Assembly: GCF_012910905.1 (NCBI RefSeq)
Contig: NZ_WTVN01000002.1
Coordinates: forward strand, 186,001-250,000
Length of the DNA stretch: 64,000 bases
Direction: 5' to 3'
DNA from: Aromatoleum toluvorans
Lineage (GTDB): Bacteria; Pseudomonadota; Gammaproteobacteria; Burkholderiales; Rhodocyclaceae
Position numbers and translations under genes: made by a program. Position 1 is the first letter of the stretch. Each line of letters opens with the position of its first letter. The notes beneath the pieces were generated by a model that saw only the letters and a list, made by a program, of their open reading frames with translations, was not told where the DNA came from and did not search any database. Of the stretch, positions 25,637 to 56,077 are shown one piece after another.

Positions 25637-25788
25637 TGTAGGTTCCCACAATACGTGAAAACGAGCCCTGACGGTGGCGCGCGCCTTTTCGTGATCTGTG
25701 AGAATCCTGCATCCAACCGTCTCACAAAACATGAAAGAAACCTACAACCACTGAGAAATCAGGGTCTAGAGTCTCACGGAATGAGGGC
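25637..25788 (+). repeat. Left transposon end with TnsB-like sites
   Basis: The terminal repeat occupies 25637-25662. Three copies of a roughly 20-bp motif of the form TCTCACAAAACATGAAA are seen: L1 at 25643-25662 (ending GTGAAAAC), L2 at 25718-25737 (CTCACAAAACATGAAAG) and a weaker L3 at 25769-25788. L1 and L2 agree at about 14 of 19 positions. Widely spaced sites are typical of a Tn7 left end. Confidence 0.78.
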
Positions 25789-25839
25789 CGGTCTCACGCG
25801 CGCGTTGTCGCTCTGCTTTGTCGCGGTGAGTGTTGGGTG

Positions 25840-26385
25840 TCAGTACACGTCCGTTTCCGCAGCGGTCGCCGTCGGCTCGAAGCCCTGTTCCATGAGGTGG
25901 GACGTGGAGTGGAATGTTCTGACGTTTCGCTCCCCGCTGGCAGTGATCAATCCCAGAACTCGTTCTCCTTTGTACTGATGACATACCCATTCCCTTTGCT
26001 GCGGAGATCCACCACCGATCAACATCAAAGGACATCGGACGCGCGCCTGCGGATGCCGGGCGATCGACCGGAGGGTGCGCTGGTCGAGCCAACTCATCCG
26101 AGGCGAAGCGTCCGGATGTGTGTGCCAGTCCCCCAAGTATGCGAACAAGCCTGACGATCGGTCAAAAATGATGTCTAGCTGACGACATTGCCATGCATGA
26201 TCAGGCTTGAAGCGATGACGCCGATGCATCGCGGAGGGGCCAGGGCCCACCGCGACAAACACGACTGGCTCGCCATTTTCTGCGAAATACCCGACCAACA
26301 CCCCACCTGTTTCCAAAGGATAAGCGCGATCTGCTTCGGTGATCATTTCCTGGAACGCGGTATCGCTGATCCAGAGCGGGTTCAT
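25840..26385 (-). CDS. JAB/JAMM metalloprotease (Cap3-like deconjugase)
   Basis: A 181-residue Mov34/MPN/PAD-1 (JAB) domain protein with a complete JAMM zinc site: E25 in LETGGVLVG, and H88, H90, S98, D101 in GDWHTHPDASPRMSWLD. Relatives in type II CBASS (Cap3) remove the conjugate made by the partner E1-E2 enzyme. Its ATG overlaps the stop of the E2-E1 gene (ATGA), so the two are translationally coupled. It is the last gene before the left transposon end. Role here: cleaving or maturing the modifier attached by the upstream enzyme (inferred). Confidence 0.88.
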   Translation of the reverse strand: MNPLWISDTAFQEMITEADRAYPLETGGVLVGYFAENGEPVVFVAVGPGPSAMHRRHRFKPDHAWQCRQLDIIFDRSSGLFAYLGDWHTHPDASPRMSWLDQRTLRSIARHPQARVRCPLMLIGGGSPQQREWVCHQYKGERVLGLITASGERNVRTFHSTSHLMEQGFEPTATAAETDVY

Positions 26386-28130
26386 CCGGGATTACATGCG
26401 GGGCAGGTTGGATTGACCAACAGTGGGTAGGGCGTCCACTCCGGGACGATAGAAGCATCGCCGCGGGTGAAGTCTCCGACAGCAACGTCCCAAGCAAAGT
26501 CTGAGTAGCCGCCGGGTTGGCCGGAACAGAGCGTAGCCACGGCAAGACGTGAGGCGAGCAGTGCGACCTCGTCACTATCGATTCCTGCACCGATAAACGT
26601 GGGTTGCGAGCAGCCGCCCGGTTGGATCTCGTCCGAACCGGTGTCGGCAGGAAGGCGCATGGAGTTGTCGGCCAAATTGCGTTGAAAGCAGTGCCAGCAG
26701 CCCGCCGTTTTCCCTGGGAGAATCCTTCCCACCACCCCCCCTGCGGCGCCGTGGGTTGTAGTCAACCATAGGTACGGCTTGCGAAGTTCTTGCGCGAGAT
26801 CAGCTAGGAAATGACTGACGCGGTGGGTTGCCGCAGCGTCGATGATCAGATCCACCTTCTCGCCGACCGAGCGAATGAGGTCGTAGTCGGAGAAGAAGAT
26901 GTCGTTCGGCTGGGAAGGTACGCCTATCCTTGCGTAGTACGAGGTGACGTTCGTATAGGGATACTCGTTCCGTAGGTGCTCGTCCAGTGCTGAAACCTTG
27001 GCAAACCCGGCGTGCTGCCAGCCGAGCGCCCAGCGAATCGTGTTGCCGACCTGGAGTTCGTCACAATCGACGAGGTATAGCTGCTGTATTCCTGCACGGG
27101 CCAGTTGTAGCGCCAGCGGCGAACCCAGACTGCCCAAGCCGACCACCAACGCAGACTTGGTTCGGAGCGGTCGAAGGGCTGGAGCACGTCGCATCCAGGC
27201 TTCTTCACCTCCCCAGTTCGCAGGAATGAACTGTTGTTGCACGAGCGCTGGGCGCGTGCCCTTTGCTTCCCGGTGAACCCTCACTGCGAGGAAAACCCAG
27301 TCGTCAGAACTGCGCCGCCACGCCGTTTCGTCCGGATAGACGAAGCCAGCGACAAGGACTTGGCCGCGCCTTGCTGTTTCTAGTGCCTTCTTGAACTCCG
27401 GGACGTTGGTCGTCATGAGATCGAGAAAGTACTTCTCGAACCTCAGCCCATCGCTTGGACGAGGGCGGTCCGGTAGACGCATCCAGAAACCGGTAAGCGC
27501 CTCAGAAAACGCCGGAACCGTGGTGGAGAATTCGACCAACGGTCTGCGTTTAAGGTCGGTGACCGTCTGCACTACTCCGTTGATGAAGGGGGTATCGGCC
27601 AACTGCTTTGGTACGGGGCGAACTTTTAGCGCAAGCCGCCCCGAAGCATGCTCCGGCGGTGGAGCCTGGTCGGGCACGATGATCGTACAGTTTGGCGGAT
27701 ACGGCAGGAACGAAGAGAAGGGTTCTCCGACGTGATCCTCGTTCTCGGCAACAAAGGCCGAAGAGAGTTCTGCGGCGTTGATGGCTTGCAGACGAGGTAG
27801 TTGGTCTCGAAGGAGCACAGCGAGCGTGTCCTCGCCAGGTTGCCAATCCTCCCCACCCCTGGCCAGCAAGCACAAGTTCTTGCCCAGCGGATGATGGTGG
27901 CGACTGAGCCCTGGGCCATCAAGAACCACCTGAGGCGGGAAATACGGAAACGTGTCCGGGTACTCGGCCACGAGATTCAGCGTGTCCCCTTCGTTCGGGA
28001 CCTGAACTCGGATGATGAGTCGGCCCGCTTGCCGAGCGGCCTCGTCCACACTCCACGGATAGCCCAAAGCACTGAGAGCCGTTTTCTCAGCCTCAAGTGC
28101 TTCGGGATAGCGACCCCACCAGGTCTCCAT
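26382..28130 (-). CDS. E2-E1 fusion ubiquitin-like conjugation enzyme (Cap2-like)
   Basis: A 582-residue fusion. The N-terminal E2-like domain (about 1-150) has the HHPLGKNLCLL active-site pattern with Cys87 and the downstream W-x-P...TL helix. A linker (about 150-320) follows. The C-terminal ThiF/E1 adenylation domain (about 325-582) has VVGLGSLGSPLALQLARAG (nucleotide loop), LVDCDELQVGN, a zinc knuckle of C478-x2-C481 with C576-x2-C579, and the catalytic Cys507 in GGCSQPTFIGAG. The architecture is that of CBASS Cap2, which activates a C-terminal Gly and attaches it to targets. Its start lies one base after the stop of a 43-codon gene. Confidence 0.9.
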   Translation of the reverse strand: METWWGRYPEALEAEKTALSALGYPWSVDEAARQAGRLIIRVQVPNEGDTLNLVAEYPDTFPYFPPQVVLDGPGLSRHHHPLGKNLCLLARGGEDWQPGEDTLAVLLRDQLPRLQAINAAELSSAFVAENEDHVGEPFSSFLPYPPNCTIIVPDQAPPPEHASGRLALKVRPVPKQLADTPFINGVVQTVTDLKRRPLVEFSTTVPAFSEALTGFWMRLPDRPRPSDGLRFEKYFLDLMTTNVPEFKKALETARRGQVLVAGFVYPDETAWRRSSDDWVFLAVRVHREAKGTRPALVQQQFIPANWGGEEAWMRRAPALRPLRTKSALVVGLGSLGSPLALQLARAGIQQLYLVDCDELQVGNTIRWALGWQHAGFAKVSALDEHLRNEYPYTNVTSYYARIGVPSQPNDIFFSDYDLIRSVGEKVDLIIDAAATHRVSHFLADLAQELRKPYLWLTTTHGAAGGVVGRILPGKTAGCWHCFQRNLADNSMRLPADTGSDEIQPGGCSQPTFIGAGIDSDEVALLASRLAVATLCSGQPGGYSDFAWDVAVGDFTRGDASIVPEWTPYPLLVNPTCPACNPG

Positions 28131-28131
28131 A

Positions 28132-28263
28132 TCAGCCGACCGGCCGATGGCCCGGGGGCTTAGGCGCGCCGTGCCCGGGGTTCGGGCGATTGCTGGGCGG
28201 CCCGGGCGGGACGTCCGGGTGTTCCGGCCTCTGGGGATGATCGGGTTTATTGCCTTGATTCAT
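28132..28263 (-). CDS. 43-residue proline-rich peptide ending in Gly, candidate modifier
   Basis: A 43-codon gene with a strong ribosome site (CACGAGGAATCGTCC before ATG) and its stop one base before the E2-E1 start. Fourteen of 43 residues are Pro and six are Gly; motifs such as HPDVPPGPPSNRPNPGHG repeat loosely, so the chain should be disordered. It ends PPGHRPVG, i.e. with a C-terminal Gly, the residue that E1 enzymes of this type adenylate. It is the first gene of the operon, where Bil-like systems encode a ubiquitin-like protein and CBASS encodes a CD-NTase. I do not recognise a family. It may be the transferred modifier, or a target or regulator of the enzyme. Confidence 0.72.
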   Translation of the reverse strand: MNQGNKPDHPQRPEHPDVPPGPPSNRPNPGHGAPKPPGHRPVG

Positions 28264-28407
28264 TGGACGATTCCTCGTGAAAGAGCCCGGCCATAAAGGA
28301 AGTCGCCGGACGTGTTGAAGAAGGCGGTCGCGGTCGACTGCCAACGGCGCAAGACCACACTATATACATGGGTAAGTAAAATACAACTACTTTTTATCAC
28401 ATCATAT

Positions 28408-28427
28408 AAAGTGTGGCATCACACTTT
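28408..28427. promoter_or_regulatory. Palindromic operator between the WYL regulator and the conjugation operon
   Basis: A perfect 8-bp inverted repeat, AAAGTGTG-GCAT-CACACTTT, lies in the 210-bp AT-rich divergent promoter region. It is the natural candidate for the binding site of the WYL regulator, since CapW-type proteins bind such palindromes as dimers and repress their operons. Confidence 0.65.
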
Positions 28428-28474
28428 CTACAACTGTTCGGTACAATGAGGAACCTTCAGAAGACATCGGCGTG

Positions 28475-29332
28475 ATGGGTCCCCAGCGAGACATTCAGCG
28501 TGAGCGGCTGTTCTACATAGAGTTCTTGGCGCTCTTCGTCGGCCAGGTCAGTCGAAAGGACCTGGTCTCCCGCTTCGGCATCAGCGAGCCAGCTGCTACT
28601 AAGGATCTTTCCCTGTACGCGGAGCTGGTACCAGGGATGCTGCGCTATGACCTGCGGCAGAAGTGCTATGTCCTCGGCGAAGGAGAACCCTATTTCGAGC
28701 ACGACCCGGAGCAAGCGCTCTATTCCCTGGCGGGAGAGCGGGCGATCGCAATGGATACGGAGCACGCAAGGCGACTGCCTAGCTGGGTGAATTCCAGCAT
28801 CAAGCGAGATGTCCCGTTGTCGGTTGTAGCGGCGATCACGCGATGCATCTACCAGCGGCGAAAGATGGCTGTTCGGTATGGATCGCTTTCGACGGGGGCC
28901 CGGGAACGTGTGCTGTCGCCCGTCGCCCTAGTTAATGATGGTTTGCGTTGGCACATCCGGTGCTTCGCGCATGAGCACGATGAGTTTCGGGACTACAACC
29001 TGGCGCGTTTCAGTACTGTCAGCGTGAGTGACCCGTCAGACGTAAGCCTTAACGAAGATAGGGAATGGAATACGGAGGTTCGGCTAAGACTAGTGCCGCA
29101 TCCGAAGGCTAAGCATCCCGAGACGATCTCGTTGGATTACGGAATCACTGACGGCGCCAAGTATGTGACGTTGCGAGCGTGCTTGGTTGGGTACTTTCTC
29201 AGGCATTGGCACATCGATTTCTCTGATGAGGCGACCGGCGATCCGAAAGCTCAGCAGCTTTTCCTGGATAACAAGAGGGATCTGCGGGAGGCTGGAGTAC
29301 CAAATTGGGCGTTTGAACAGGAGTTGAGCTGA
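28475..29332 (+). CDS. WYL-domain transcriptional regulator (CapW/BrxR-like)
   Basis: A 285-residue protein with an N-terminal winged HTH (about 10-65, LFVGQVSRKDLVSRFGISEPAATKDLSLYAEL), a central WYL domain (about 120-200, KMAVRYGSLSTGARERVLSPVALVNDGLRWHIRCF...YNLARF) and a C-terminal WCX-like dimerisation extension. This is the layout of CapW and BrxR, autorepressors of CBASS, BREX and other defence operons. It is divergent from the peptide/E2-E1/JAMM operon with a palindrome between them, so it probably silences that operon until infection. Start: ATG at 28475, or GTG one codon earlier. Confidence 0.87.
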   Translation: MGPQRDIQRERLFYIEFLALFVGQVSRKDLVSRFGISEPAATKDLSLYAELVPGMLRYDLRQKCYVLGEGEPYFEHDPEQALYSLAGERAIAMDTEHARRLPSWVNSSIKRDVPLSVVAAITRCIYQRRKMAVRYGSLSTGARERVLSPVALVNDGLRWHIRCFAHEHDEFRDYNLARFSTVSVSDPSDVSLNEDREWNTEVRLRLVPHPKAKHPETISLDYGITDGAKYVTLRACLVGYFLRHWHIDFSDEATGDPKAQQLFLDNKRDLREAGVPNWAFEQELS

Positions 29333-29459
29333 CCAACTGCAAGTAGGCCTGATTCGGACCTGAGGGGCGGGCACGTTGTAAGGGTGAAGCCGGTCCTCTT
29401 GTAGCGCGTCGGTCAGCGTCGACTTAGGCTTGTACCGTGGGTTGCGTGAGGTAGTGGCG

Positions 29460-30902: not shown

Positions 30903-30960
30903 GTAATTCGAACCATATGTAGCAACATACTTACTCTCATGTTCTGACAGAGGTGATGCC

Positions 30961-31342: not shown

Positions 31343-31398
31343 CCACTCGCTCTACTGTTGTCCGAGGGGGCTTAATCACCACCACAGTAGCTTGAGTG

Positions 31399-33246
31399 CT
31401 AGGAAGGCAATCTCTCCGCGTCTCTCCACAGTGCTTCAACGACAGCCTGTAACGCAGTGTCTCGCCGGTAGAGGTATTGGCGGCTGCCGTCGATAGCAGG
31501 GCCGCAAACAGCGAAGATTCCCAGCTTCTCTAGGATCTGGATTACCCGTCTCGGACTTAGGTTCAGTTCTAATGCGATCTGGGAACCCAAGACGTAGCTC
31601 TCGCGAAAGCCGTCCAACTCAGACTTCCTGATCAAGCGCTGATCGGTGTCTGGGTCAACCGTGAAGGGGAGTATCCCACGAGCCAGCAGATGATAGGCAG
31701 TCTCCTGCTTTAGCCCGAGCCTGCGAGCAGCCTCGGGAACGGTCAAGGCTTCTTCGCGGAGCGTTTCAAGTTGTCGATCTCTCCAATCCGTAAGCTCTTC
31801 GCGATCGAAAACCCATGCTCCCATCCCCGCACGATCGGCGATAGCCGCGATGGGCAGCATTTCCCCCTCGATGACGCTCAGGATGAGATTGGGGAAAAGG
31901 GATTCTCGGTGCAGGACGAAGCGTAGGGCATCGTTAAGGCTGAGGCCAAGGCGGTCCGTGTTCTCGTGCCAATCGGGAAGGTTGGAACCCAGTACCAGCA
32001 GGTTCTCAAGAAACGAGCGGGAAAGGATCCAACTGGAAGATCTGTGTGCTTTCGGTGCAATGGCGGGTCCTAGCAGGCGATGCTCAATCAGCTGGGAGAC
32101 CCTGCGCCTCTGTAGGCCAAGGAGCTGGGCCGCGGATCGAAGATCCACCGTTTCGCGCAGCGAATCGGCGATCTGGGATAGCTCCCGGCGATCGATGCAA
32201 AGCATCTTGCGTCCCCCTGGTGTCGCCATGACATGCCCCGCGATGCGACCGGCCTTGTGCAGCAGTGCGAGCTTTCTCGGGCTGGTGGCGAGGACATGAG
32301 CCGCCTCCTTAGCGGGAATCCAGATGTGTTTCTGACGGAGATCCTTTGATAGAAGCTTGTTTCGATTCGTCAGCGGCCGGGGCCAGTTCTCCGCGATATA
32401 CGCCTCGAAGGCGTAAATGATGGCGCTAAATTCCGGTTGGGAGAACTGCTCAAACATGAATGAATAGAAACTACCAAACTGTCCGATGAACTGATTGCCG
32501 CGGCGGACGTTCTCCTGCCGTCGCGCTCGCAAATTTCGAAGCAGGCGGTGGAAACCGTCGGGCCAGTCGAGCAAGGTTTCGGCAGCATAGTGGGCGATGG
32601 GACGCACTGCCTGCATCGTGGCGAAGCGAGGGATTTTGAGCAGGATCCGCCGTCCAGGAGCAGGATCCGCGTAGGCCCCGAGAAAGACGGCCAGTCGATG
32701 CAGTTGTGCCAGCTGAAGAAACTGCAAATGCTCCGGCCCACCGTCGCAGCCGGTAAGACGGTCACGGAGTAACGTCGCGAAGATGGTCTCGATTTCGCCT
32801 GCGGCCACTGCCGGTGCCTCTTGCAGGCGTGCCCCACAGACACACCGAAGGAGCGCGCTTCGATTCCAATCCAGGGAGTGGCCGCACTGATGGCAAACGT
32901 CTACGAGCGCACAACGGTGCTCGGGACAAACGGTCAGCAGAGCAAGCTCCCATTCCTGGCGCCAATATCCTGCGAGCTTCAGACAGACGGGGCAGTACCG
33001 GCTGCCCCGCCGGTTCCATACCTTGTAGGTGTCGTACCCGGCGGGCTCCAGTTCCTGAAAGAGTCTCATGCCATGCAATGACTTGAGGTCCCAACCCAGG
33101 CGTTGTCTGATGCAGACATCGAGTGAGTCGTGGTTATCAAAGGCTGCACGGATCCCTTGAAGACCATTGCCCTCGGCGACTCGAAGGAGGAAGCCGTATA
33201 GGCCTTCCGTTTCGTGGGGCGCGGGGTGATAAATAAGGCGAGTCAC
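31399..33246 (-). CDS. tniQ: TniQ/TnsD-like target-selection protein
   Basis: A 615-residue TniQ-family protein, of TnsD size rather than the short TniQ of CRISPR-associated elements. The N-terminal TniQ domain has a zinc-binding array: RYCPVCLKLAGYWRQEWELALLTVCPEHRCALVDVCHQCGHSL and then CVCGARL (about residues 83-140). The C-terminal 300 residues hold several HTH-like blocks (AAHVLATSPRKLALLHKAGRI, AAQLLGLQRRRVSQLI, AARRLGLKQETAYHLL, IALELNLSPRRVIQILEKLG), suited to reading a DNA attachment site. The insertion point suggests that it recognises the 3' end of gyrB. Its ATG overlaps the tnsC stop. Confidence 0.87.
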   Translation of the reverse strand: MTRLIYHPAPHETEGLYGFLLRVAEGNGLQGIRAAFDNHDSLDVCIRQRLGWDLKSLHGMRLFQELEPAGYDTYKVWNRRGSRYCPVCLKLAGYWRQEWELALLTVCPEHRCALVDVCHQCGHSLDWNRSALLRCVCGARLQEAPAVAAGEIETIFATLLRDRLTGCDGGPEHLQFLQLAQLHRLAVFLGAYADPAPGRRILLKIPRFATMQAVRPIAHYAAETLLDWPDGFHRLLRNLRARRQENVRRGNQFIGQFGSFYSFMFEQFSQPEFSAIIYAFEAYIAENWPRPLTNRNKLLSKDLRQKHIWIPAKEAAHVLATSPRKLALLHKAGRIAGHVMATPGGRKMLCIDRRELSQIADSLRETVDLRSAAQLLGLQRRRVSQLIEHRLLGPAIAPKAHRSSSWILSRSFLENLLVLGSNLPDWHENTDRLGLSLNDALRFVLHRESLFPNLILSVIEGEMLPIAAIADRAGMGAWVFDREELTDWRDRQLETLREEALTVPEAARRLGLKQETAYHLLARGILPFTVDPDTDQRLIRKSELDGFRESYVLGSQIALELNLSPRRVIQILEKLGIFAVCGPAIDGSRQYLYRRDTALQAVVEALWRDAERLPS

Positions 33247-34250
33247 CGGATCCCCCCGTCGTCAGATTGCCGGTTTGATCGGCCTTCCGGGTCACGGCCC
33301 AGGCTCGCCAGTAGATCCGCAAAAGGTTCTCCAGGACGAGTCAGCGGCCGCAGATCTGACGATGCAGAAAAGGGATTGAGGCCGGGCGATGCGTCCCGCC
33401 AAACCTCCTCTTCGAATGCCTCGGCCAAGTGGTGCTGATCGATGTGGGCGCAGCCGTGGTACCTCGCCGCATCGACCGCACCGTCAGTGATCTTGCAGAC
33501 GTAGTCGATGAGCCCGAAGCTGGCGCAGTGGAACCGCTGAGCCATCTCGGGCGTACTGATTGGGATCGAGGGCAACGGCAAGGCGCTCTCAATCGCCGAC
33601 AGCAGTCCGCGGAACCGCAGGATCTCATCTACTGTGGTGAATCGGAAGGGGCCAAGATCGAAACGAGCAGAGAAACGCCGAGCAAGTTGCGGATTCAGGC
33701 GGAGGACTCGAGCGGAATCTGGCATTCCCATCAGCACAACGGGAATGCCAGCGTTGTTGATAAGGTTCTTCAGCCAGTCCGTCACCCGGGCCGCTTCGGT
33801 TCTTTTGCCGTGATCGAAAAAGTGTTGAAACTCATCGATAATCAACAGCTCGACGCCGCATATGCGGAGCAGGCGGTAGATGCGTTCCGTTTTCTGGGCT
33901 GCCGTACCTTTGTGGCTTATCGGGTCCCCCATCGCGATCAGGATCGCTTCGGCGAGGTTCTTTACTGTCGGCGGTGCTGGAGTGTCGACATTCAGCACCG
34001 GGATCTTCAGGATCTCCCCGTTGTCCTGCACTGGGTAACGTCGTTCGTACTCCTTCCGGACAGTGGTCTTGCCTGATCCGGTGAGACCGGTAATCAAGAG
34101 ACCACCGGCCTGACCGGAGTTCTTTGATTTCAGGTGTAGGCGCTCAACTCTCAGAAGGGCTTCCTGGAAGGCTGGGTGCTCGATCACCGTTTGACGGATG
34201 GAGAAGCCCTGAAGTCGGGAGGAAACTGTCACGCGCTTCGGGCGGGTCAT
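33243..34250 (-). CDS. tnsC: TnsC/TniB-like AAA+ transposition regulator
   Basis: A 335-residue AAA+ ATPase with Walker A LITGLTGSGKTTVRKEY (about 52-68), Walker B ELLIIDEFQHFFDHG, sensor-like VVLMGMPDS and the arginine-rich FSARFDLGPF segment. TnsC-type ATPases bridge the target selector (TniQ) and the transposase (TnsB/TnsA) and confer target immunity. It is shorter than Tn7 TnsC (about 555 residues), closer to TniB. Start and stop overlap the neighbouring genes by 4 bp on both sides, indicating one tightly coupled operon. Confidence 0.9.
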   Translation of the reverse strand: MTRPKRVTVSSRLQGFSIRQTVIEHPAFQEALLRVERLHLKSKNSGQAGGLLITGLTGSGKTTVRKEYERRYPVQDNGEILKIPVLNVDTPAPPTVKNLAEAILIAMGDPISHKGTAAQKTERIYRLLRICGVELLIIDEFQHFFDHGKRTEAARVTDWLKNLINNAGIPVVLMGMPDSARVLRLNPQLARRFSARFDLGPFRFTTVDEILRFRGLLSAIESALPLPSIPISTPEMAQRFHCASFGLIDYVCKITDGAVDAARYHGCAHIDQHHLAEAFEEEVWRDASPGLNPFSASSDLRPLTRPGEPFADLLASLGRDPEGRSNRQSDDGGIR

Positions 34251-36208
34251 GCGGACTCCCCTCCGTCGTGATCGCGCCGTACCGACTTGAACTGGGGAAC
34301 GGGCCCTCCGGCAGACGGGGGCAACGGCGTCGCAGGTGTTGTTTTTGGCCGCCTTGAACCGATCGACTTAGGCTTGTGCGCCGATGCGCTATCGACACCC
34401 TTCATCACCGCCTTACGTTTGCGCGTAGCCATCTTTCGGCTATGTGCGGCCGTGTGGATGAGATCCTGAAGTTCGTGCTTCTTGGCAAGAAGGGCTGCCA
34501 GAGCCTCCGGCTTTTCATTCTCCTTGCGAAGTTTGGCGCGGATTAGTTCATGCTGAATCAGGCGAAGACCCGCGGCGTATCCCTGGTCGATGGCTTGCAC
34601 CTCGAAATAGGCCTTGTGGTCCGGGTCGAAGACGTGGATGTACCCGACGTCGTCCTCGTGATACTTGACCGTAACGCGAAGGTCCTCACCGTGGCGACGG
34701 CGCAGGAGCTGAAGATCGGCATTGTTGTACCGCAGGCCATTCACCTCGACGCCATAGTGGAACACGCGTCGTTCGGTGCAGTGCGCCAGAATCACCCGGA
34801 CCTGAGCTGGTTCGGCCGGATATTCAAGGATCCGCTCTCGCTCACCCATTTCCCACTTCTTGGCCGGTGGCATGCCGATGCCGCGGTGAGGTGTTTGGTT
34901 GTAGATCTCGACGATCCACTTGGTGACGACGTGAAGTAGGGTGTCGAAGCTGATGCAGGCCAGGTTTTCGGAGTCGTATTCGCACCGCTCGGTCACATTG
35001 GAGAAAACGGTACCCGGGAGGCGATGGATCAGGTCGTGATTGATGGTTTTCAGTACTCGCTCCACTGCCCCTTTGTACTCTGGGGTCATGGCCGGGCAGA
35101 ACTGCAGTTGCACACCGAAATCCTCACAGGCCATGGCCAACGCGCTTGCATGCAGTTCCATGCCGTTGTCGCACACGAGAACCTCGAAGAATCCTCGTGC
35201 CGGCCACCGAGTCGTGATATCGGGGTAGAGCTTCAGCAGATCCTCTTTGGGAAGAATGGCTTGAGCAAGGCAGCTCAGTACCGAGTAGGCTGATGGGGTG
35301 TGAAAGCCGATGTAGAAGCCGACGATCATTCGGCTGTACTTGTCGATTGCGAGGGTGAGCCAAGGCTTTCCCAGCGGTAGCTTTGCCTTGGTGCAGAAGA
35401 CCAGGACGTTGAGGGGGGTATGGTCGATCTCCACCCGTTCGAGCAGCCTCTCCGCCTTTTGGGTGCCGAGAACCATGCGGTAGTGGCGGTCAGCTACCGC
35501 CTTGCCATGCCGTCCGGCCGTCAGCTCATAGTCTTCAAGGCACGCCATGTATCGATAGAGCGTTGCTCGTGACGGAGCCGTGACTTGGTTTTCCGGAGGC
35601 CGTGCGCGGTTGATTTGTGTAACTTGGTGGACGACTTTGTCGCAAACGGCTTTTCGGGGATGTCGCTGCTTATGGAGCAGTATGGTGTCGATCGCCATCG
35701 TGACGATCTCTTGTATCTCCGGCGACCACCTACGCCTTCTACCCAGCCGATCCCTATGGTCGACCAGGTCGGTGACGCTGGAGCCGACGGAGTACCGGTA
35801 ATTCCACCGATAGATGGACACTGGACTCGGCGGTGTTCGGTCGCCGATCTCGGCCGCGACTTCCCTGATGAGAGGCGTGAGGGCCTTGGCGGTGAATACC
35901 AGGGGGCCCTTGGCTCGAAGCCGCTGAAGATACATTTGGCGGCGCAGAGCGCGTGCCTGCAAGGGCTCCGGGTAGCTGGAAAGGTCGCGGCTGATCAGTA
36001 CCGGCGGCGCGCAGTCAGGGGAGTTTTCGAGGTCGACAACGAGTTCCCCTATCGCGCACTGACGGATAACGTCGGCCTCACGCACGTTCCAGAGCTCACC
36101 GTCTTCAGCCTCGAGTTGGATTGAACCATCCGTCAGACGGCGAACCACGAGCCAGGCACGCTGCTGGCGAAGGAAGCGCAAGCCGCGCCTAAAAGAAAAG
36201 CGTCGCAT
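34247..36208 (-). CDS. tnsB: TnsB/TniA-like DDE transposase
   Basis: A 653-residue rve-family transposase. N-terminal DNA-binding HTH region; catalytic core with the first Asp in VEIDHTPLNVLVFC, the second in EVLVCDNGMELHASALAMACEDFGVQLQFCPAMTPEYKGAVERVLKTIN and the Glu in the same run (GAVER); then a Mu-type C-terminal beta domain and a basic tail. It cuts the 3' ends and joins them to target DNA, binding the repeats at both element ends. The start at 36208 has an ideal AAGGAGTACGACG site; it overlaps the end of tnsA by 20 bp. Confidence 0.92.
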   Translation of the reverse strand: MRRFSFRRGLRFLRQQRAWLVVRRLTDGSIQLEAEDGELWNVREADVIRQCAIGELVVDLENSPDCAPPVLISRDLSSYPEPLQARALRRQMYLQRLRAKGPLVFTAKALTPLIREVAAEIGDRTPPSPVSIYRWNYRYSVGSSVTDLVDHRDRLGRRRRWSPEIQEIVTMAIDTILLHKQRHPRKAVCDKVVHQVTQINRARPPENQVTAPSRATLYRYMACLEDYELTAGRHGKAVADRHYRMVLGTQKAERLLERVEIDHTPLNVLVFCTKAKLPLGKPWLTLAIDKYSRMIVGFYIGFHTPSAYSVLSCLAQAILPKEDLLKLYPDITTRWPARGFFEVLVCDNGMELHASALAMACEDFGVQLQFCPAMTPEYKGAVERVLKTINHDLIHRLPGTVFSNVTERCEYDSENLACISFDTLLHVVTKWIVEIYNQTPHRGIGMPPAKKWEMGERERILEYPAEPAQVRVILAHCTERRVFHYGVEVNGLRYNNADLQLLRRRHGEDLRVTVKYHEDDVGYIHVFDPDHKAYFEVQAIDQGYAAGLRLIQHELIRAKLRKENEKPEALAALLAKKHELQDLIHTAAHSRKMATRKRKAVMKGVDSASAHKPKSIGSRRPKTTPATPLPPSAGGPVPQFKSVRRDHDGGESA

Positions 36209-36824
36209 CGTCGTACTCCTTTGCAAGTTGAATGAGAGAGTCGGGTGTGATCGCGCGGGTCAGGTCGCTGTGGTATCGGCCTGAAGCCAGGAGGCGATAG
36301 ACGCTGACGTCGTCACCCAGGACTGCCGAGGCGCCCCTGAAGGTCCGAGCGGGGAGGATCGACAACCGAGTCACGAGGTCGTCGAGTGCGGCGGCGTCCA
36401 ATCGACCTGCGTGGTACGCGAGCCGTTTCAGGTTCTCTAGAAGCGGCTCCGCGCGGATGTGCTCTTCGGTGAGGATCTGGAAGGCGCGCCCGATCCGGTC
36501 GTAGTGCCCCGCAATCGCCTTGAATCGCTGAGTGACGTCCGGCTTCGCGAGCTTTGCGGCCGGTTTGATCTCGACGTGGCGGATCGTTCCGTCGCAAAGC
36601 TGGAGTTCGAAATCCGGAATGTAGAAAAACGAGCCGTCCTCGGTAGAAAACTGCACCCGCTCGGGCTGTTCCCGGAACTCAAGGACGCCTGGCGAAAACT
36701 CGAACAGGTAAATCGCGTCGCGTTCGAGTAGTGATTCCCACGCAACCATGCGGCCCGTCTTTCTTGAGGGGAAGTATCCCCGTACGCGCCGGCCCGAGCG
36801 CGTAACGACTCTACGTACAGCCAT
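36189..36824 (-). CDS. tnsA: TnsA-like endonuclease
   Basis: A 211-residue TnsA-family nuclease with the PD-(D/E)xK active site: Glu in VAWESLLERDAIYLFEF, Asp in FYIPDFELQL and the VEIKP motif (Glu-x-Lys) 17 residues later; the C-terminal half is the TnsC-interaction region. TnsA makes the 5'-strand cuts, giving cut-and-paste rather than replicative transposition together with TnsB. The ATG at 36824 has GGGAGAACCGTC upstream and is preferred to a start 33 bases earlier. First gene of the core operon. Confidence 0.9.
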   Translation of the reverse strand: MAVRRVVTRSGRRVRGYFPSRKTGRMVAWESLLERDAIYLFEFSPGVLEFREQPERVQFSTEDGSFFYIPDFELQLCDGTIRHVEIKPAAKLAKPDVTQRFKAIAGHYDRIGRAFQILTEEHIRAEPLLENLKRLAYHAGRLDAAALDDLVTRLSILPARTFRGASAVLGDDVSVYRLLASGRYHSDLTRAITPDSLIQLAKEYDDATLFF

Positions 36825-37080
36825 GACGGTTCTCCCGGCTGCCAGAATCGTGGACAAGAGATAGCCCGACGATCCTTAGCAGCGCCAAGATTCGCTTCAG
36901 GTACCACCGATTTCAGGCGTAAAGATGCCCGTTTCCGGGTCTTTCACCGAAAGCCAGTAGCTCGAAAAAGTGAAGGGCGGCTTGACGCGAGGGAGAGGAG
37001 CGAACGATACTTTGAGTGCGAATCGAAGGTAGCGTCAGCTGCTTTCCGGAACGGGGCAGGCCGCAAGGTTTGTCCCGTTT

Positions 37081-37503: not shown

Positions 37504-37630
37504 GACGGTGATTGTGGGTGTCGATGACAGCAGAGAATTTAGCGGATATTCGACGGTATATCAACATAATTGGTTGATTCGTAAAGTAATTTAATAAAAT
37601 CACTTCTGACGTTGGAAATGACCGGGTATC

Positions 37631-44311: not shown

Positions 44312-47300
44312 GAGATCTCGCGGAGTTTACCAGTCGATACGGAGATCTCGTGCTTACGGGCGCATCGGGCTTGAACCGGTTCGATCTGCGCGATGTGGCA
44401 CTTGTGGACCTGTGCCTTCATTTTTCGCATCTGCATGCGCCGTCTGAGCCCGTTCACCTTCTTCCCTCCCTGCTCCAGGGGCACTTGACGACGTGGCTGC
44501 CCGAACAGGCGGCTCGGCGCCTCTTCACGCTGCGGCAGTACGCGGGAAACTTCTGTAGCCGGTTGGCTTGGAGGAAGGCGCTTACCGCGCACGCTGAGGT
44601 GAGCAATCGTGCGGCGTATCGTGTGGTCGACGGTTTCACACGGCGAAGGGACGCGGTTTCACCTTCGGTCATTGCATTCCTGGATAGCATTCTCGACGCG
44701 CGCGCCGAATATTCGGCGCGGGAATTGCGGCTCGCCGACGCGGGCCATGCGAAGGTCACGCTGACGAAGAACGCAGACGTTAGAACCGTCAGGATTCCCG
44801 ATATCCCACTCACGCCGCCGCGTCGTGTTGAGCTGCCGAGGAGAAGCGTAAACCCGCCAGTATCCGTCAAGTGGACGACGCTCTTGGACGTTGCGCGACG
44901 GGTCGATGAACGGGAGTCCGCCCCCGGCTTCCCAGGCTGGATGCCCAAGCTGAATCTCTTCAAGCGCCTTGAAAAGGTGCGAGTCGAGAGTTTGGGGGGC
45001 GGCTTCTTCAGGGACGGCGCGATCACGCTGGACGGCACAAGCCATCTTGTTGGCATGTTGTCGAGCGGCAAGAGCACGCTGCTGCATGCGCTGTTGTTCG
45101 CCTTGATCAGCCCGGGCTACGAGAAGCGTGTGTTGATCCTGTCGCCGGACACCGCGTCCGCGTCACAGTTGGTCGCTCGCCTGCATGCTCATGGATTTTC
45201 CGAGGCAACGGTGATCAGCTCGCCAAGGAACAGAGACGAGCATCTCAGCATGGCGCACTGGAACGCCCGCGGCTACCCATCTGATTCGACCCTCGAGGCA
45301 ACCGCGGCACTGACCAGCAGCCTTGGTGTCGCTTGTCCGCTGGAAGGTTTCCAGCCTCTTCCTCAGTTGGCAAACGATCCGGCGGCTCCGGGTGTGCTTA
45401 AGCTTTCTGAGAAACCGTGCCACCGGCTAAAGCAGGGTGGGCGCAGCGGTCACGAAGGCGACCGAACATGTCCGCTGATCACCTCATGTCCCGTGCACGA
45501 TCAACAGAGCCGTCTAGGAACGGCGAACGTCATAGCGATGACCGCCCCGGCATTGCTGCATATGACCGTGGACAAGGCCTTCGTGGCCGAGGAGATGTCG
45601 TTTCCGGAGTTGTTCCAGTTTCTCGCTGACGTGGTCTTGATCGATGAAGCCGACAGCGTGCAGACGCATTTTGACGAGGAGTGTACGCAGGAGAAGGATC
45701 TGCTCTCGACCAACGAGTCGGCATTCATGATCTCAAGCGTTCGGGCGGTCGTGAAGGCCATTGGTGATCGGACAGGAAGTCAGTACCAGTCGTCCGCTAA
45801 CGTGAGGTGGATTCGTGAGCTGAACCGGCTGCAGGACAGTATCTCGGCGATCTATCACTTGCTGTTGAGGCATGGCGATGCACTGCGCTGGATCACCGAA
45901 AGGAAGACATTTACAACCGCGAGCATCTTTGCCGATCTCTTGCCAAAGAATCCATTTCCCTTGGAGGAAGACGAGGTTCGACCGGAAGAGCGAGCCGGCA
46001 AGCTGGAGCAGATCGCGATCATGGCCGGGATGCTTTACGGAAAGTCGGCCACGGGAGACGAAGAGGATCAGGAAGCCGTCGGTACTGACTCCGCCAATCT
46101 CAACGATGAAATGCGTGAAGCCTACCGTTTCTTGAAGCCGATACAGGCCGATGTAATCGACGCGGTCGTCGATCAGCAGGAGGGCGAGACGATTGACCGG
46201 ATTGCGGAGGCGATCGACACGGGGGTCCTCCGGATGTTCTCGTGGCGGTCCGCTCAGCCCACGATGCGCAGGCGTGGCCGCTCGCCCGACGATCGATTCG
46301 GGAGGCCGGAAGTGCCAACCGACGCGCGGAACCGAGCTCTAGCAGTCTTGCTGGCGATGCTGACGAACGTGTGTCTTTCGAGTTTCGCGTACCTGGTTCG
46401 TAACCAAGCCGCGGTTGAGGATGAATTCGGCTTGTTGAAGGAGGATGCGTTTCGAGAGGCCAGGAGAATCCTGCGCCACTATGGCAATCTCATTCCTCGG
46501 CCCATGTTCGGGAGCGTCTTTGGGCTCATGTTCCATCAAGCGGGCGATTCGGCGCAAGGTGGAACGCTCAAGCTGGTCAACCACCTTGGCGTAGGTCGAT
46601 ACCTGTTGACGAATCTCCACGGTCTGCTGGCATACGAAGGTCAAGCCGGGCCGCATGTCCTCCTGATGTCCGGGACAAGTTGGGCGGGCGGAAACTCGCC
46701 CACCGCTTCGCCCACATTCGATGTCCAGTGGCCTGTGACCGCCATCCTCAGGCAGCCGGACGAGGAACTGGAGGCGTTGTCGCACAGCCGATACGAGTTC
46801 GTTTCCCTTGGACATGAGCCCATCAGCATTTCGGGCGCTGCGCCGGATACCCGGAGGGCGCGGTTGCGCCAAGTGGCTAACCTGCTGGGCAGGCCGGCTC
46901 CCACCGGGACGATTCTGCAAAACAAATGGCAGGACTTGGAAGAGCTTTGGGCAGGGCAGGGACTACGATCAGCTGACCGTCGGCGTGCCCTGCTTGTCAC
47001 AAACAACTACCCGGATGCGAAGCTTGTAGCGAACGAACTCGCAAGGGCCTGCGGACAGTCGCATTCGGTGTACTGCCTGGTGAGTGACCAACTTGCGCGG
47101 ACTGGCGAGTTCGAACGGGAGGCCGCACGGTCCGGGGACGAATTCCATCGGGGGGTGAACCTTCTGCCGCGATCGAGGGTAGAGGACTTCGGACGATCAC
47201 CCGAAGGGTCGGTCCTGGTCGCTCCGCTCGGACCGATCTCAAGAGGACACAACATCGTTACTCCCTCGGGGCAGGCGGCGTTGAGCACAATCTACTTCCT

Positions 47301-47805
47301 CCATCGTCCGCACCCACGGCCGGATGACCATTCCACGGTCGTCGGCATGCTAAACCGCGCGGCGATGGACCTGCAGTTGAAGCGGGATCGGCCGGCTAAG
47401 GAACCCGTATCCTTGTCGGACCTTGCCAGATGGTTCATCTCCCGCGGCCATCGCGCATTGAACGACGGGTTCGCGCTGCGCGTGTCCTACCAGGTAATGT
47501 CGCCGGAGGCACGGGCGCAATTCGCTTGGGACCTCATCACCTCTCTCTGGCAGACGATCGGGCGAGGAATACGGGGTGGCGTCCCCGTCTACGTTGGATT
47601 CATCGATCAGAAGTTCGCGCCGGGTCGGTACCAAGACCCGCCGAAGGCCGATACGGACAGTTCCAGCTGTCTCAAACAATGCCAGGAAACCCTGCGGTTG
47701 GCGATCGAGGACAGCGCCGATCGCGTCATTGCCGAACGGCTTTACAGCCCCTTTCTTGAAGCACTCGACCAACTATTTTGCGAACAAGTGAGAGGAAAAG
47801 TATGA
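44308..47805 (+). CDS. DinG/XPD-like helicase of the pPIWI-RE island
   Basis: A 1165-residue SF2 helicase. Walker A LVGMLSSGKSTLLHALL (about 246-262), four cysteines at about 343, 371, 388 and 395 spaced like the Fe-S cluster of XPD/DinG enzymes, DEAD-type box in VVLIDEADSVQ (about 446), and motif VI in LWQTIGRGIRGGVPVYV near the C-terminus. DinG-type helicases unwind DNA and DNA/RNA hybrids; in pPIWI-RE islands a large DinG-like protein is the constant third gene. It overlaps both neighbours by ATGA. Confidence 0.85.
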   Translation: MRDLAEFTSRYGDLVLTGASGLNRFDLRDVALVDLCLHFSHLHAPSEPVHLLPSLLQGHLTTWLPEQAARRLFTLRQYAGNFCSRLAWRKALTAHAEVSNRAAYRVVDGFTRRRDAVSPSVIAFLDSILDARAEYSARELRLADAGHAKVTLTKNADVRTVRIPDIPLTPPRRVELPRRSVNPPVSVKWTTLLDVARRVDERESAPGFPGWMPKLNLFKRLEKVRVESLGGGFFRDGAITLDGTSHLVGMLSSGKSTLLHALLFALISPGYEKRVLILSPDTASASQLVARLHAHGFSEATVISSPRNRDEHLSMAHWNARGYPSDSTLEATAALTSSLGVACPLEGFQPLPQLANDPAAPGVLKLSEKPCHRLKQGGRSGHEGDRTCPLITSCPVHDQQSRLGTANVIAMTAPALLHMTVDKAFVAEEMSFPELFQFLADVVLIDEADSVQTHFDEECTQEKDLLSTNESAFMISSVRAVVKAIGDRTGSQYQSSANVRWIRELNRLQDSISAIYHLLLRHGDALRWITERKTFTTASIFADLLPKNPFPLEEDEVRPEERAGKLEQIAIMAGMLYGKSATGDEEDQEAVGTDSANLNDEMREAYRFLKPIQADVIDAVVDQQEGETIDRIAEAIDTGVLRMFSWRSAQPTMRRRGRSPDDRFGRPEVPTDARNRALAVLLAMLTNVCLSSFAYLVRNQAAVEDEFGLLKEDAFREARRILRHYGNLIPRPMFGSVFGLMFHQAGDSAQGGTLKLVNHLGVGRYLLTNLHGLLAYEGQAGPHVLLMSGTSWAGGNSPTASPTFDVQWPVTAILRQPDEELEALSHSRYEFVSLGHEPISISGAAPDTRRARLRQVANLLGRPAPTGTILQNKWQDLEELWAGQGLRSADRRRALLVTNNYPDAKLVANELARACGQSHSVYCLVSDQLARTGEFEREAARSGDEFHRGVNLLPRSRVEDFGRSPEGSVLVAPLGPISRGHNIVTPSGQAALSTIYFLHRPHPRPDDHSTVVGMLNRAAMDLQLKRDRPAKEPVSLSDLARWFISRGHRALNDGFALRVSYQVMSPEARAQFAWDLITSLWQTIGRGIRGGVPVYVGFIDQKFAPGRYQDPPKADTDSSSCLKQCQETLRLAIEDSADRVIAERLYSPFLEALDQLFCEQVRGKV

Positions 47806-50441
47806 CGGCTGCGATCCACCCTTACCTCTACGAGATTGATGCAGGGATCCTTCTGGACCGACGGATCGTTCGCTATTCACTGCCGTTGGGGATCTATGGA
47901 GCGATCAAGGAGGCGCAGGGTGTCGAAGTTGACCGCAATGCAAATATTGCCGGTCTATCGGCTGTGCTGGGCTGGGCGGCTCCAAGTGTCGATCTGGTTG
48001 GCATTGAAGCGGAGTCGTACGGCGAGCCGACTTCGATCACACTGATCGCCATCGACCCGGCCAGTTCCGTCGACGAGATTAGGCGGGAGATCGAGGTGGC
48101 CGTGGCCATATGGCTCGGTATCGTTCTACCAGACAAGTCCTCCGCAATTATCGCGATGCTTCAGGACGGGCGGAGCTTGAGAGGTAAGCCATGCAAAGAA
48201 GTGACGATCGATCCGCGTGTCACGTGGAATGGCGCGTGCCCTGTTCCCAAGGACCCCGCTCTATTCAACCTTATCACGCTTGCGGCAGCGCGGGCGCTTG
48301 AAGGGAAGGCGGTAAACGAAGGAACCTGCAACGAGGGCGTCCTTGTGTCGTCCGGCCCCCAACGCAGCCTCTACTCCGGCAAGACGTTGCTTCGATATGA
48401 GCCCTCCCGCGTCGAGCGGAAATCGGGGCCAGGATGGTGGACCGAGCTGTTTAGCGTTGCGGCGGTGTCCACGCCCGAGAGCGACAAGTTACGCGTTTCC
48501 GTGAACGTGGGAATTCGGAACTTCGGTTCCGTTCACGCTGCACGCCTGAGCTGGACGCGCGCAAGAAGTATGGACGTGTTCCTTCCGGTGGATCCCGCCT
48601 TGAACACAGGCGCCGGCCGCATGCGATGCGTGGACCTTGCCACCACGCGACAGGATTGGCGGAATGCGTCCGAAGGCAAGAATGGAAACGACAGCGCCGA
48701 CAGGCGAGTGCTGAAGGCGATACTTGGCATGTCTGGCATCCCGTTCGACGAGGCGGAGTTGGGCATGAGCAGCATTATTGGTGATCGCGTTGGTCTCTAT
48801 CCGAGATTCGGGACTGTCCATGGAGATCAATGGGCGCCAGGTGGGACGGGCTTACCAAGTCCCGAGAGGGCGGCGTACCTGGACAATCTGGATCGCCATC
48901 TTGGAGCGGCGGGATTTCATCGAGTTGACATGGAGCGCGTCACCCGGAAAGGGCCTCGCACAAGGGCCGTGGTGGGAATTGGCGGGACGCCAGCCGAGCT
49001 CCGTGCTGCATTGGGACGCTCGGCACATTCTCTGGATAAGAGCGGTGAAAGTCACTTGGTCCTGCTCAAGGCCAGAGAGAGCGGAACAGACCTGGTCTCG
49101 CAGGCGGTTTGCAAGACGATAGGCAATCCCGACGAGGTGATTGGAAACCGGTGGCACTATTCCGAAGGGCCATCGTTGGTCATCGACACCATCCCAGCTG
49201 GATCTCTCGCGGAGATGGTCGATGACATTGATCGGACTCGACTCGCGGGGCTAGCCAAGGAAAAGCGGTGGAAAGTCGAGAAGTATTTGCTCGATGCGCG
49301 CGACAAGCAGGCACGTCAAGCGATGAGGGAATATCTTGATTCCCAGCAGCCAGTACCTGTCGGGCCTTGGATGGCCTTGCTTGAGATGAACAAGGCGTTG
49401 AGGGAGCGATCGGCTCGCGATCCTTACCTGCTCACGTACCAAGTGATCTCCGAAAGACAGGGTGTTGCACAGGTGCGGCTTTTCGATCCGGATGACGATC
49501 GCGCTGATGTGGGCACGGATCAAGAAGACGCCGAGGAGGACCCGGACCAACTCGCCTATCAAAATGCGTTCCTCGACCTCCTTCGCGCCTACGGCGTTTG
49601 TCCTGTGGAGCGACAGGATGTCCGCCTTGCGGCGTGGTGGATGATCGACGTACATGGACGCCAGGAGTATCAGGCGGGGGAGCGAGGAGGGCTTGCCACA
49701 CCGGTATACGTGGAGTGTCACGGCGGGACGATCTCGGTGTGTCTACTCGGCCCCGACGAGTCGGTGCATCGTTGCTCGTATCCCGAGGCGATCCGGCGGA
49801 TCTCCATGAGAGAGGTGCTCAATCTGAGAACCGCAAAGAAGATGGAGCGAACAGCAAGAGTCGGGCAGTTCTTCGCCCAAGCGACGCCACGGGATCGATA
49901 CCCCACCGTCTTGTTTGTCGAGGCGACGAATATCCGGCAGTCTGTCCCGGGCCTGCAAAACAGTTTGAACTTTCAGTTCGACGCCTTGCGACTCGGCGCT
50001 GTTGGCGGTGCGGCGCCGATCAGAGAGATTTCGCCGGAGGACAACATCGCGATCGTGCGGATCACCGACGAGGCGGCCAAGGCGCCGTGCTACTGGGTAG
50101 AAGGAAACGTTCAGGGCACTACGGCTGGTGTTTTCAAGGAACCGACCTCGGAGCGAACGTACTGGGTGAGCCGAGGGTTGCCAACCCCCCTTCAGCGAAG
50201 CCTGGCAACGGTGAGTGCAAACAAGAAGTCGCGACACGAGTCAGGGGCGGGGCAACTCAAACACCGACGTTTCCCGTCCTTGAGCGAGGTATCGGTAATG
50301 GTCAAAGGGAAAAACGACGACGCACTGGGCTTAGTGCTGCTGACACGGCAAATGATGCAATGCCACATTGCGACTGACGAGAGGACCATACTTCCCTTCC
50401 CGTTGCATGAAGCCGGCTTACTTGCCGGAGCGGTCCGATAA
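47802..50441 (+). CDS. pPIWI-RE protein (Argonaute/PIWI superfamily)
   Basis: An 879-residue protein with the layout of pPIWI-RE: an N-terminal unique region, a MID-like domain in the middle and a C-terminal RNase H/PIWI domain. Visible signatures are YPTVLFVEATNIRQSVPGLQN (about 697-717), IVRITDEAAKAPCYWVEGN, ERTYWVSRGLPTPLQRS (about 783-799) and the C-terminal ILPFPLHEAGLL; the conserved Arg and Glu that name the family fall in the MID-PIWI core. Such proteins are thought to use nucleic-acid guides against invading DNA or R-loops. The start has GAGAGGAAAAGT upstream. Assignment is by pattern and by its two partners. Confidence 0.85.
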   Translation: MTAAIHPYLYEIDAGILLDRRIVRYSLPLGIYGAIKEAQGVEVDRNANIAGLSAVLGWAAPSVDLVGIEAESYGEPTSITLIAIDPASSVDEIRREIEVAVAIWLGIVLPDKSSAIIAMLQDGRSLRGKPCKEVTIDPRVTWNGACPVPKDPALFNLITLAAARALEGKAVNEGTCNEGVLVSSGPQRSLYSGKTLLRYEPSRVERKSGPGWWTELFSVAAVSTPESDKLRVSVNVGIRNFGSVHAARLSWTRARSMDVFLPVDPALNTGAGRMRCVDLATTRQDWRNASEGKNGNDSADRRVLKAILGMSGIPFDEAELGMSSIIGDRVGLYPRFGTVHGDQWAPGGTGLPSPERAAYLDNLDRHLGAAGFHRVDMERVTRKGPRTRAVVGIGGTPAELRAALGRSAHSLDKSGESHLVLLKARESGTDLVSQAVCKTIGNPDEVIGNRWHYSEGPSLVIDTIPAGSLAEMVDDIDRTRLAGLAKEKRWKVEKYLLDARDKQARQAMREYLDSQQPVPVGPWMALLEMNKALRERSARDPYLLTYQVISERQGVAQVRLFDPDDDRADVGTDQEDAEEDPDQLAYQNAFLDLLRAYGVCPVERQDVRLAAWWMIDVHGRQEYQAGERGGLATPVYVECHGGTISVCLLGPDESVHRCSYPEAIRRISMREVLNLRTAKKMERTARVGQFFAQATPRDRYPTVLFVEATNIRQSVPGLQNSLNFQFDALRLGAVGGAAPIREISPEDNIAIVRITDEAAKAPCYWVEGNVQGTTAGVFKEPTSERTYWVSRGLPTPLQRSLATVSANKKSRHESGAGQLKHRRFPSLSEVSVMVKGKNDDALGLVLLTRQMMQCHIATDERTILPFPLHEAGLLAGAVR

Positions 50442-51182: not shown

Positions 51183-51358
51183 TGATTACTCCCTGATGTA
51201 CATGATCAGCACATTTCCGGTGTAGGGCGTGTGAAGACAAAATCAAGTCCTTTGTAGCTACCGAAACTGTCTGGAGAATCGGGGGCAGGCCACTACTGCC
51301 GTTGACGCCGAGTAGCTCACTACATGAGCTTGGCGACGTGCGTGGCCGACGCTCAAGC

Positions 51359-55641: not shown

Positions 55642-55993
55642 CTACGTTCCTTGGAAAACTTGGGGCCATTCGAAATCTGGCACTCGCGTTGCACAGCGAC
55701 CCGCGCGTCCAGGTACCGGTTGGCTGTTCACCAAAATCAGTAGTCGTCGCCCGTACCGTCAATAACATGCACTTGATCATTCATTCAACGGGGGGGACCA
55801 AAGGGTCGCATGGGTCGATGGCAGTCATGCTAGCACATAGGCATGAATGACTGCTAAGGCCAAGGAGAGTCGGGTTACCCAGGGGGAATGCTGGGTGCGG
55901 ATGTCCTACGTGGCCGCGGGGCGTCGCCTTGAACGGGCTATTGGACGTCCGTGTTCGAGGCCGCCAAGATCTGAAGATGCGAGTGGTTCCTCA

Positions 55994-56025
55994 ACAAAAA
56001 AGCCCCGCCGATTGCTCGGCGAGGC
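55994..56025 (-). terminator. Replacement gyrB terminator inside the transposon right end
   Basis: On the minus strand GCCTCGCCGA-GCAA-TCGGCGGGGC is followed by TTTTTTG, a good intrinsic terminator about 55 bp beyond the gyrB stop codon. It lies inside the element, next to the inner TnsB-like repeat, so the transposon supplies its host gene with a new 3' end and insulates its cargo from gyrB transcription. Confidence 0.85.
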
Positions 56026-56031
56026 TACGCT

Positions 56032-56077
56032 GTTTTCATTTTGGTGAGATTGTTTTCACTTATTCTGAGAACCTACA
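56032..56077 (-). repeat. Right transposon end with two abutting TnsB-like sites
   Basis: Read inward on the minus strand from 56077: TGTAGGTTC, then site R1 (56052-56071, ending GTGAAAAC) and, directly adjoining, site R2 (56032-56051, AATCTCACCAAAATGAAAAC). The terminal 26 bp match the left end at 23 positions in inverted orientation. Closely packed sites are typical of a Tn7 right end. Confidence 0.85.

Follow-up and report, generated by a model that had tools for sequence, protein, structure and literature searches.

The described elements closest to the one reported here are Tn7, the type I-F3 CRISPR-associated transposons (CASTs) such as Tn6677 and PseCAST, and the Tn7-like elements catalogued by Benler et al. 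in 2021. Tn7 is said, going by the title of a 1986 paper by Gay, to insert into the glmS terminator. At glmS, Tn7 is bound to a coding site of 36 bp, and the element inserts at a distance of about 25 bp from it, which is about 20 bp past the stop codon (PMC2918618). Tn7017, of the I-F3 branch, has a TniQ-targeted site at parE (PMC11406308). Here we describe an element of this kind in a 64,000-nucleotide stretch of Aromatoleum toluvorans DNA (contig NZ_WTVN01000002.1, positions 186,001 to 250,000), which as a whole is called the window below. Positions 25637-56077 of the window form a complete Tn7-like transposon of 30,441 bp, which carries tnsABC and the gene of a 615-residue TniQ/TnsD-type selector, and which is attached to the 3' end of gyrB, a paralogue of parE. 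We consider it highly probable that this is a cut-and-paste Tn7-like element with anti-phage cargo, directed by its selector to the end of gyrB, furnished with its own terminator, and belonging to a widespread gyrB-attached family; it may still be active.

The terminal inverted repeats, which begin with TGTAGG (left end, 25637..25662, plus strand; right end, 56052..56077, minus strand), are identical at 23 of 26 positions, whereas the best end pair beside the same duplication in 50 shuffled sequences reached only 12 of 26. They are flanked by a perfect 5-bp target-site duplication, ATCTC, with one copy at the far, left end (25632..25636) and the other on the gyrB side (56078..56082). Two bases, the final ones of the TGA, belong both to the gyrB-side copy and to the gyrB stop codon (56081-56083), which was thus rebuilt on insertion. 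The internal TnsB-type repeats were sought with the motif TCTCANANAWNANGAAAA, written from the element's own ends and allowing up to two mismatches. It has three matches in the 64 kb, two in the left end (25686..25703, inverted, minus strand; 25720..25737, plus strand) and one inside the right terminal repeat (56053-56070, minus strand), all of them within the ends, compared with a shuffle mean of 0.21. A second, abutting repeat of the right end (56032..56049, minus strand) was read by eye. When the element's own genome was searched with the outermost 120 bp of the left end, that stretch itself was the only match. An earlier note on this DNA had claimed a complete 30.4-kb Tn7-like transposon with these TGT...ACA repeats and additional TnsB-like repeats at both ends, inserted exactly at the gyrB stop codon, with its right end facing the gene as in Tn7, and with tnsA, tnsB, tnsC and a 615-residue selector on board; ends, coordinates and genes proved to be as claimed.

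The transposition genes, which were recognised with Pfam, lie on the minus strand, as does gyrB (56081..58594, also identified with Pfam). They encode the endonuclease TnsA (36189..36857; the NCBIfam TnsA-like match is below cut-off), the transposase TnsB (34247..36226; C-terminal Mu domain above, integrase core below cut-off), the TniB/AAA ATPase TnsC (33243..34250), and the selector (31399..33246). The selector has an N-terminal TniQ domain (PF06527, E 9e-14) and an HTH_17 domain near its C-terminus, and its N-terminal part matches solved TniQ/TnsD chains. Like Tn7, the element thus combines TnsA, TnsB, TnsC and a TniQ-family selector with TGT...ACA ends, several TnsB-type repeats and a 5-bp duplication, and it sits in one orientation just behind the stop codon of an essential conserved gene. 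It differs from Tn7 in the attachment gene (gyrB rather than glmS), in the distance from the stop codon (mostly 2-16 bp in its family, against about 20 bp in the Tn7 source cited above), in having cargo on both sides of the tns genes, and in bringing a terminator in its right end. The element falls outside Tn7 proper: its site is gyrB instead of glmS, and no TnsE family match was found among the window's open reading frames (ORFs) scanned with Pfam. The nearest solved relatives of its TnsB are those of the I-F3 CASTs (E 5.9e-62), whereas the Tn7 TnsB is distantly related (E 1.5e-17). Two TniQ proteins, a further trait of I-F3 CASTs, occur in some gyrB elements; one TniQ alone was found in the window element. 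Neither the cas genes nor the array of a CAST were found: among the scanned ORFs no Cas protein was matched with Pfam or PADLOC except by generic WYL models labelled CRISPR-associated, there is no direct-repeat family of 22 nt or longer, and Rfam gave no match.

The site is found empty in G006, a genome of the same genus, where gyrB continues into the sequence found to the left of the element in the window. The joined window flanks align with it without gaps over about 80 bp (in BLAST, 59 bp at 91.5%), as had been predicted for a close relative in the earlier note. In G006 an intrinsic terminator stands shortly behind the gyrB stop; its counterpart in the window lies outside the left end (25581..25606, minus strand, in gyrB sense), in a stretch that folds at -23.6 kcal/mol (z -6.1). 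As the empty-site sequence includes this terminator, the insertion moved it 30 kb away from gyrB.

Related elements were sought in 395 genomes of the host family, Rhodocyclaceae, with a model made from an alignment of the window TniQ and two relatives. Matches at E 1e-15 or better were obtained in 34 genomes, and in 23 of these the match was full-length (at least 500 of the 626 model positions). All 23 proved to be linked to gyrB, confirming the expectation of related elements at the gyrB 3' end elsewhere: in 16, the window's own included, gyrB is on the same contig, faces the element and lies within 30 kb, and in the remaining seven gyrB is on another contig with a Tn7-type end right behind its stop. 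In one of the elements (G130) the tns genes are inverted. Among the 11 genomes with a partial TniQ, G113 is gyrB-linked by contig, and an end stands behind gyrB in G282, G273, G150, G408 and, doubtfully, G343; none was found there in G191, G319 and G112 (G029 and G412 were outside the reading). At 13 of the 25 assembled sites the two ends could be paired, with a perfect 5-bp duplication and a spacing of 1.8 to 35.6 kb. Twelve of these are full-size elements, in which 18-24 of 26 terminal positions match, compared with at most 14 in 50 shuffles each; the thirteenth is a small element in G150. In a sparse sample of the class, 369 genomes in all, six (that of the window among them) gave a match to the TniQ model with an E of 1e-25 or better, and only part of these matches extend over its full length.

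Named genomes were scanned with a TnsB alignment, a search that is blind to gyrB and to TniQ, and the best 80 of 207 confirmed loci were kept (the window TniQ as a single query found nothing in the named genome contigs). In 54 of the 80, gyrB lies upstream of the tns genes on the same strand with its 3' end facing the element, so insertion is orientation-specific. These loci comprise 30 with gyrB inside the fetched locus, 17 linked by matching length and coordinates of the contig (for L187 and L199 the distances were worked out by hand, and the gyrB of L199 is partial), two second elements on linked contigs (L134, L144), and five on contigs already examined in the family survey (L122, L135, L160, L164, L172). 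The hosts are beta- and gammaproteobacteria and include Azospira oryzae, Rhodocyclus tenuis, Thauera sp. 2A1, Zoogloea sp. LCSB751, Dechloromonas agitata, Chromobacterium, Bordetella pseudohinzii, Variovorax and Duganella, and among the Gammaproteobacteria Methylomonas sp. LW13, Methylobacter, Marinobacterium lacunae and Pseudomonas sp. T1-3-2. A single element taken by itself could have been a non-selective Tn7/Tn5053-like transposon that happened to land at gyrB. Chance would, however, place about 1% of loci there (a 45-kb stretch in a 4-Mb genome), and the insertion offsets cluster 2-16 bp after the stop; this recurrence refutes a chance insertion, to which we give practically no credence. 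By sequence comparison, the window element can be placed in a widespread family of gyrB-attached Tn7-like elements with a homologous long selector.

Of the 26 loci without linkage, 19 lie less than 45 kb from a contig end on the expected side and are unjudgeable, one (L175) was left out, and six could be judged. L143 was considered as gyrB-adjacent since its coordinates fit, but it lies on another contig (5,899 versus 12,919 bases) and was rejected. The C-terminal half of the selector scores at least 107 bits in the linked loci with a matched long selector (in eight linked loci no selector, or its N-terminal part alone, was matched within the locus). Its scores are 17-69 bits in five of the six loci whose site is clearly a different one. 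One of these, L185 from Chitinimonas viridis, has a TGTCG-type right end (7752-7810) behind a DUF1513 gene and near an imelysin gene, 2.2 kb before tnsB, and the C-terminal half of its selector barely matches; another contig of the same genome carries a further TGTCG-type end behind gyrB. L185 is a relative that uses another site with a different selector.

Several loci hold more than one element or selector. Two TnsB genes lie on one contig 6.6 and 28.9 kb behind gyrB in L132/L134, and 6.8 and 30.1 kb behind it in L144/L157, i.e. the elements are stacked at one site. L136 (G072) is two elements in tandem, with a left end and a new right end 5 bp apart just past tniQ (15032-15056; the left-end match is weak, E 1). 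In many gyrB elements (L155-L173) the long TniQ is accompanied by a short one that lacks the C-terminal half and possibly provides a second targeting route. Zoogloea sp. LCSB751, whose gyrB element is L167, is also named as the source of the comM-targeting Tsy element (PMC10293859).

The insertion point was compared in 57 distinct gyrB flanks, after removal of two duplicate records and one flank at a contig end. A sequence starting with TGTAG, TGTCG or TGTCA begins 2-39 bp behind the stop in 54 of them, with a median of 5 bp and all but one within 16 bp; it is missing in G191, G319 and G454. Stubs of another end, 8-10 bp long, stand between the gyrB stop and the right end in L056, L057 and L059 (G328, G404, G359) and in L070 (G072), which looks like the result of a new element cutting into an older one. 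Relic ends and stacked ones are in fact common behind gyrB, and older ends could attract new ones, so that the insertion point might be set by structure or sequence behind the gene (the terminator, or the ends of earlier transposons) rather than by its coding end. We regard this as improbable: what follows the stop varies from host to host, and also from occupied to empty sites, whereas the last 20 gyrB codons are conserved. The Tn7 precedent also has a coding binding site and an insertion point that is not recognised (PMC2918618). Targeting through the coding end of gyrB is therefore preferred, and by analogy with Tn7 the selector should bind within the last 20 codons, i.e. approximately the last 60 bp of the gene. 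The TniQ/TnsD-type protein would recognise this conserved end, and, acting via TnsC, would direct TnsA-TnsB to insert in one orientation a few bp behind the stop codon.

The right end of the window element contains an intrinsic terminator in gyrB sense (55996..56026, minus strand), which has an 11-bp stem followed by a run of Ts and which we propose as the replacement for the displaced gyrB terminator; the stretch folds with z -3.9. A general terminator scan of 50-58 kb found no overall excess (5 found, 6.1 expected), and the right-end hairpin has the longest stem listed in it. For the comparison of flanks, a terminator was defined as a hairpin of -8 kcal/mol or better with at least 6 T in 8, in gyrB sense, within the first 250 bases behind the stop. 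Of 58 flanks 53 were counted, leaving out G191, G319 and G454 (no end) and G281 and G071 (too short), and 38 of the 53, all of which have an end, carry such a terminator. Among complete elements it is present in the right end of 10 of 12, compared with 11 of 240 random internal windows, and in the left end of two of 12, one of them the window element. A terminator stands just outside the left end in 10 of the 12, as is expected if gyrB's own was displaced. The hairpin may nevertheless have nothing to do with gyrB and merely shield the element's genes from read-through, as in many mobile elements; such a hairpin would block gyrB read-through into the cargo either way, and 15 of the 53 flanks lack it by the script definition. 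We take this as a serious alternative, somewhat short of an even chance. It does not account well for the enrichment at the gyrB-facing end and not at the far one, for the terminators just outside the far ends, or for the right ends with apparent terminators (judged by eye) that remain behind gyrB in G001, G013 and G014. On the replacement reading, the insertion falls between gyrB and its terminator, and this is why the gyrB-facing end would carry one of its own, through which transcription of the essential gene would continue to end properly. We did not find this feature described in the literature searched.

It must be noted that several observations weigh against the view that the element is one of a selector-directed, terminator-bearing gyrB family. 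Paired ends with a duplication were not found by the script criterion at 12 of the 25 assembled sites; some of these are contig ends or stacked elements, and an end is altogether lacking in G191, G319 and G112. The flanks were taken from genomes picked by TniQ or TnsB matches, thus the proportions do not measure prevalence. Six TnsB loci (L177, L185, L186, L190, L193, L198) have more than 45 kb of room on the expected side and no gyrB there, and L177 is a true exception, as it is unlinked and yet has a well-matching selector (192 bits). The 15 flanks without a right-end terminator include those of the complete elements G106 and G130. Lastly, the C-terminal half of the selector has no convincing solved relative by sequence.

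Remnants of such elements were seen in the genus, where the gyrB flanks of 15 of 16 relatives were readable. Right-end models match G001, G014 and G013 (TGTCG type) and G003 (TGTAGCG type), with a second match, of the TGTAGG type, about 70 bp further out in G013; the matches in G005 and G012 are weak, and in the other nine they are not significant. TnsB and TniQ were not found in the stretches read (40 kb in G013, 11.6 kb in G014, and 20 kb each in G002, G004, G010, G015 and G016), which for TnsB define the extent of the search, no genome-wide one having been made; TniQ, searched genome-wide, has no match in G013 or G014. In G001, where the contig stops after 598 bp, TniQ has a single match, weak and partial. 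In G013, 82 bp of the window element's right end are retained at 98.8%, and the terminator that comes next is the same but for one change (compared by eye). A 317-bp piece from beyond tniQ is kept there at 98.1% as well, and G013 reads as a decayed cousin of the window element. In G150 (L116) both ends and a perfect duplication stand behind gyrB around 1768 bp (1.77 kb) without tns genes; the ORFs inside look like what we take to be an IS3-type element, and we read the small element as derived, by collapse, from one with another end type. According to the earlier note, ends and duplication in relatives without the tns genes would speak against the proposed transposon. G150 and G013 go part of the way towards this, and decay and collapse are ordinary explanations for them. 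The persistence of the right ends in G001, G013 and G014 suggests that the ends last longer than the elements, and that gyrB may use them as terminators.

Three end types occur at gyrB: TGTAGG, TGTC(G/A), and TGTAGCG/TGTAGATG. Profiles of TniQ and TnsB were both made from one set of 61 named loci; against them, the third type (TGTAGCG) reaches 240-265 bits with TniQ, in a match that covers most of the protein, and 78-119 bits with TnsB. In pairwise comparison the two proteins differ less: the mean identity between the first and third types is 19.8% for TniQ and 17.3% for TnsB, while within the first type (TGTAGG) TnsB is better conserved than TniQ (51.1 versus 36.9%). G127 combines a first-type TniQ with a divergent TnsB, and its two trees are discordant (TniQ p 0.0117, TnsB p 0.0046), in a test whose groups were named after the trees had been seen. 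A similar discordance of G328 and G404 was not sustained: without G127 it gave a p-AU of 0.0018, but with G127 included the grouping was not rejected (p 0.145), and on the TnsB side the alternative was not rejected either (p 0.143). These sequence data fit, but do not prove, an exchange of the selector between transposase lineages.

The cargo of the window element occupies about 19 kb between the gyrB-facing end and tnsA, with more past tniQ. The former part contains Gabija (gajB, 51359-53419; gajA, 53344-55641; minus strand), a three-gene pPIWI-RE island (43010..50441, plus strand; 43010-44311, 44308-47805 and 47778-50441), and a type IIG restriction-methylation enzyme (38630..41848, minus strand; Pfam, PADLOC). 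The latter contains a WYL-domain regulator (28472..29332, plus strand; Pfam, PADLOC), an E2-E1 (ThiF) fusion (26382..28130, minus strand; Pfam, PADLOC, NCBIfam) and a JAB-domain protease (25840..26385, minus strand; Pfam, PADLOC). Restriction-modification, Gabija and PIWI cargo, together with the use of safe sites, are shared with the Tn7-like elements of Benler et al. (PMC8649781). The stretch with the E2-E1 fusion and the JAB protease (25840-28130) matches a 6A-MBL cap2_3 model weakly, and the scan of neighbouring ORFs showed no recognised cyclase. An HNH endonuclease (23338-24258) and an EcoRII-C restriction enzyme (24723-25412) lie close to the left end on its outer side, in a stretch (23338-25412) that varies between relatives and is perhaps an older island at the same site. 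On the other side, beyond gyrB, lie dnaN and dnaA (the latter at 59864-61333), both recognised with Pfam.

In the literature searched, with subscription papers and supplements outside the search, we found no description of gyrB as a Tn7-type site. The string 'gyr' is absent from the main texts, as accessed, of PMC10293859, PMC8649781 and PMC11406308 (supplements outside the search), 'gyrase' is absent from the accessed text of a paper on Tn7-like islands in Burkholderia (PMC10702557), and gyrB is used for phylogeny in PMC12452197. The 'less described attachment site' of the earlier note understates the case, as the site is widely used. Measured against the literature searched, it is a new attachment site, and the elements are a new family within a known kind. 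A wider picture can be offered tentatively, with rather more doubt than confidence: gyrB would be a major undescribed Tn7-type site, whose selector family works with, and has been exchanged between, divergent transposases; the portable terminator would repair gyrB transcription and stay as a host terminator after the element has decayed, and the region behind gyrB in the genus would consist of layered transposon ends.

With gyrB, the few Tn7-type safe sites are joined by an essential, nearly universal gene, which here has dnaN and dnaA as neighbours, and the dozens of natural examples make the recognition of DNA by the selector testable by comparison. The gyrB site is also a candidate for site-specific DNA insertion in strains used in the laboratory. 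The arrangement suggests how an element can sit harmlessly behind an essential gene, namely by bringing the terminator that it displaces, and it gives a constant position behind gyrB in which to look for defence genes across many Beta- and Gammaproteobacteria.

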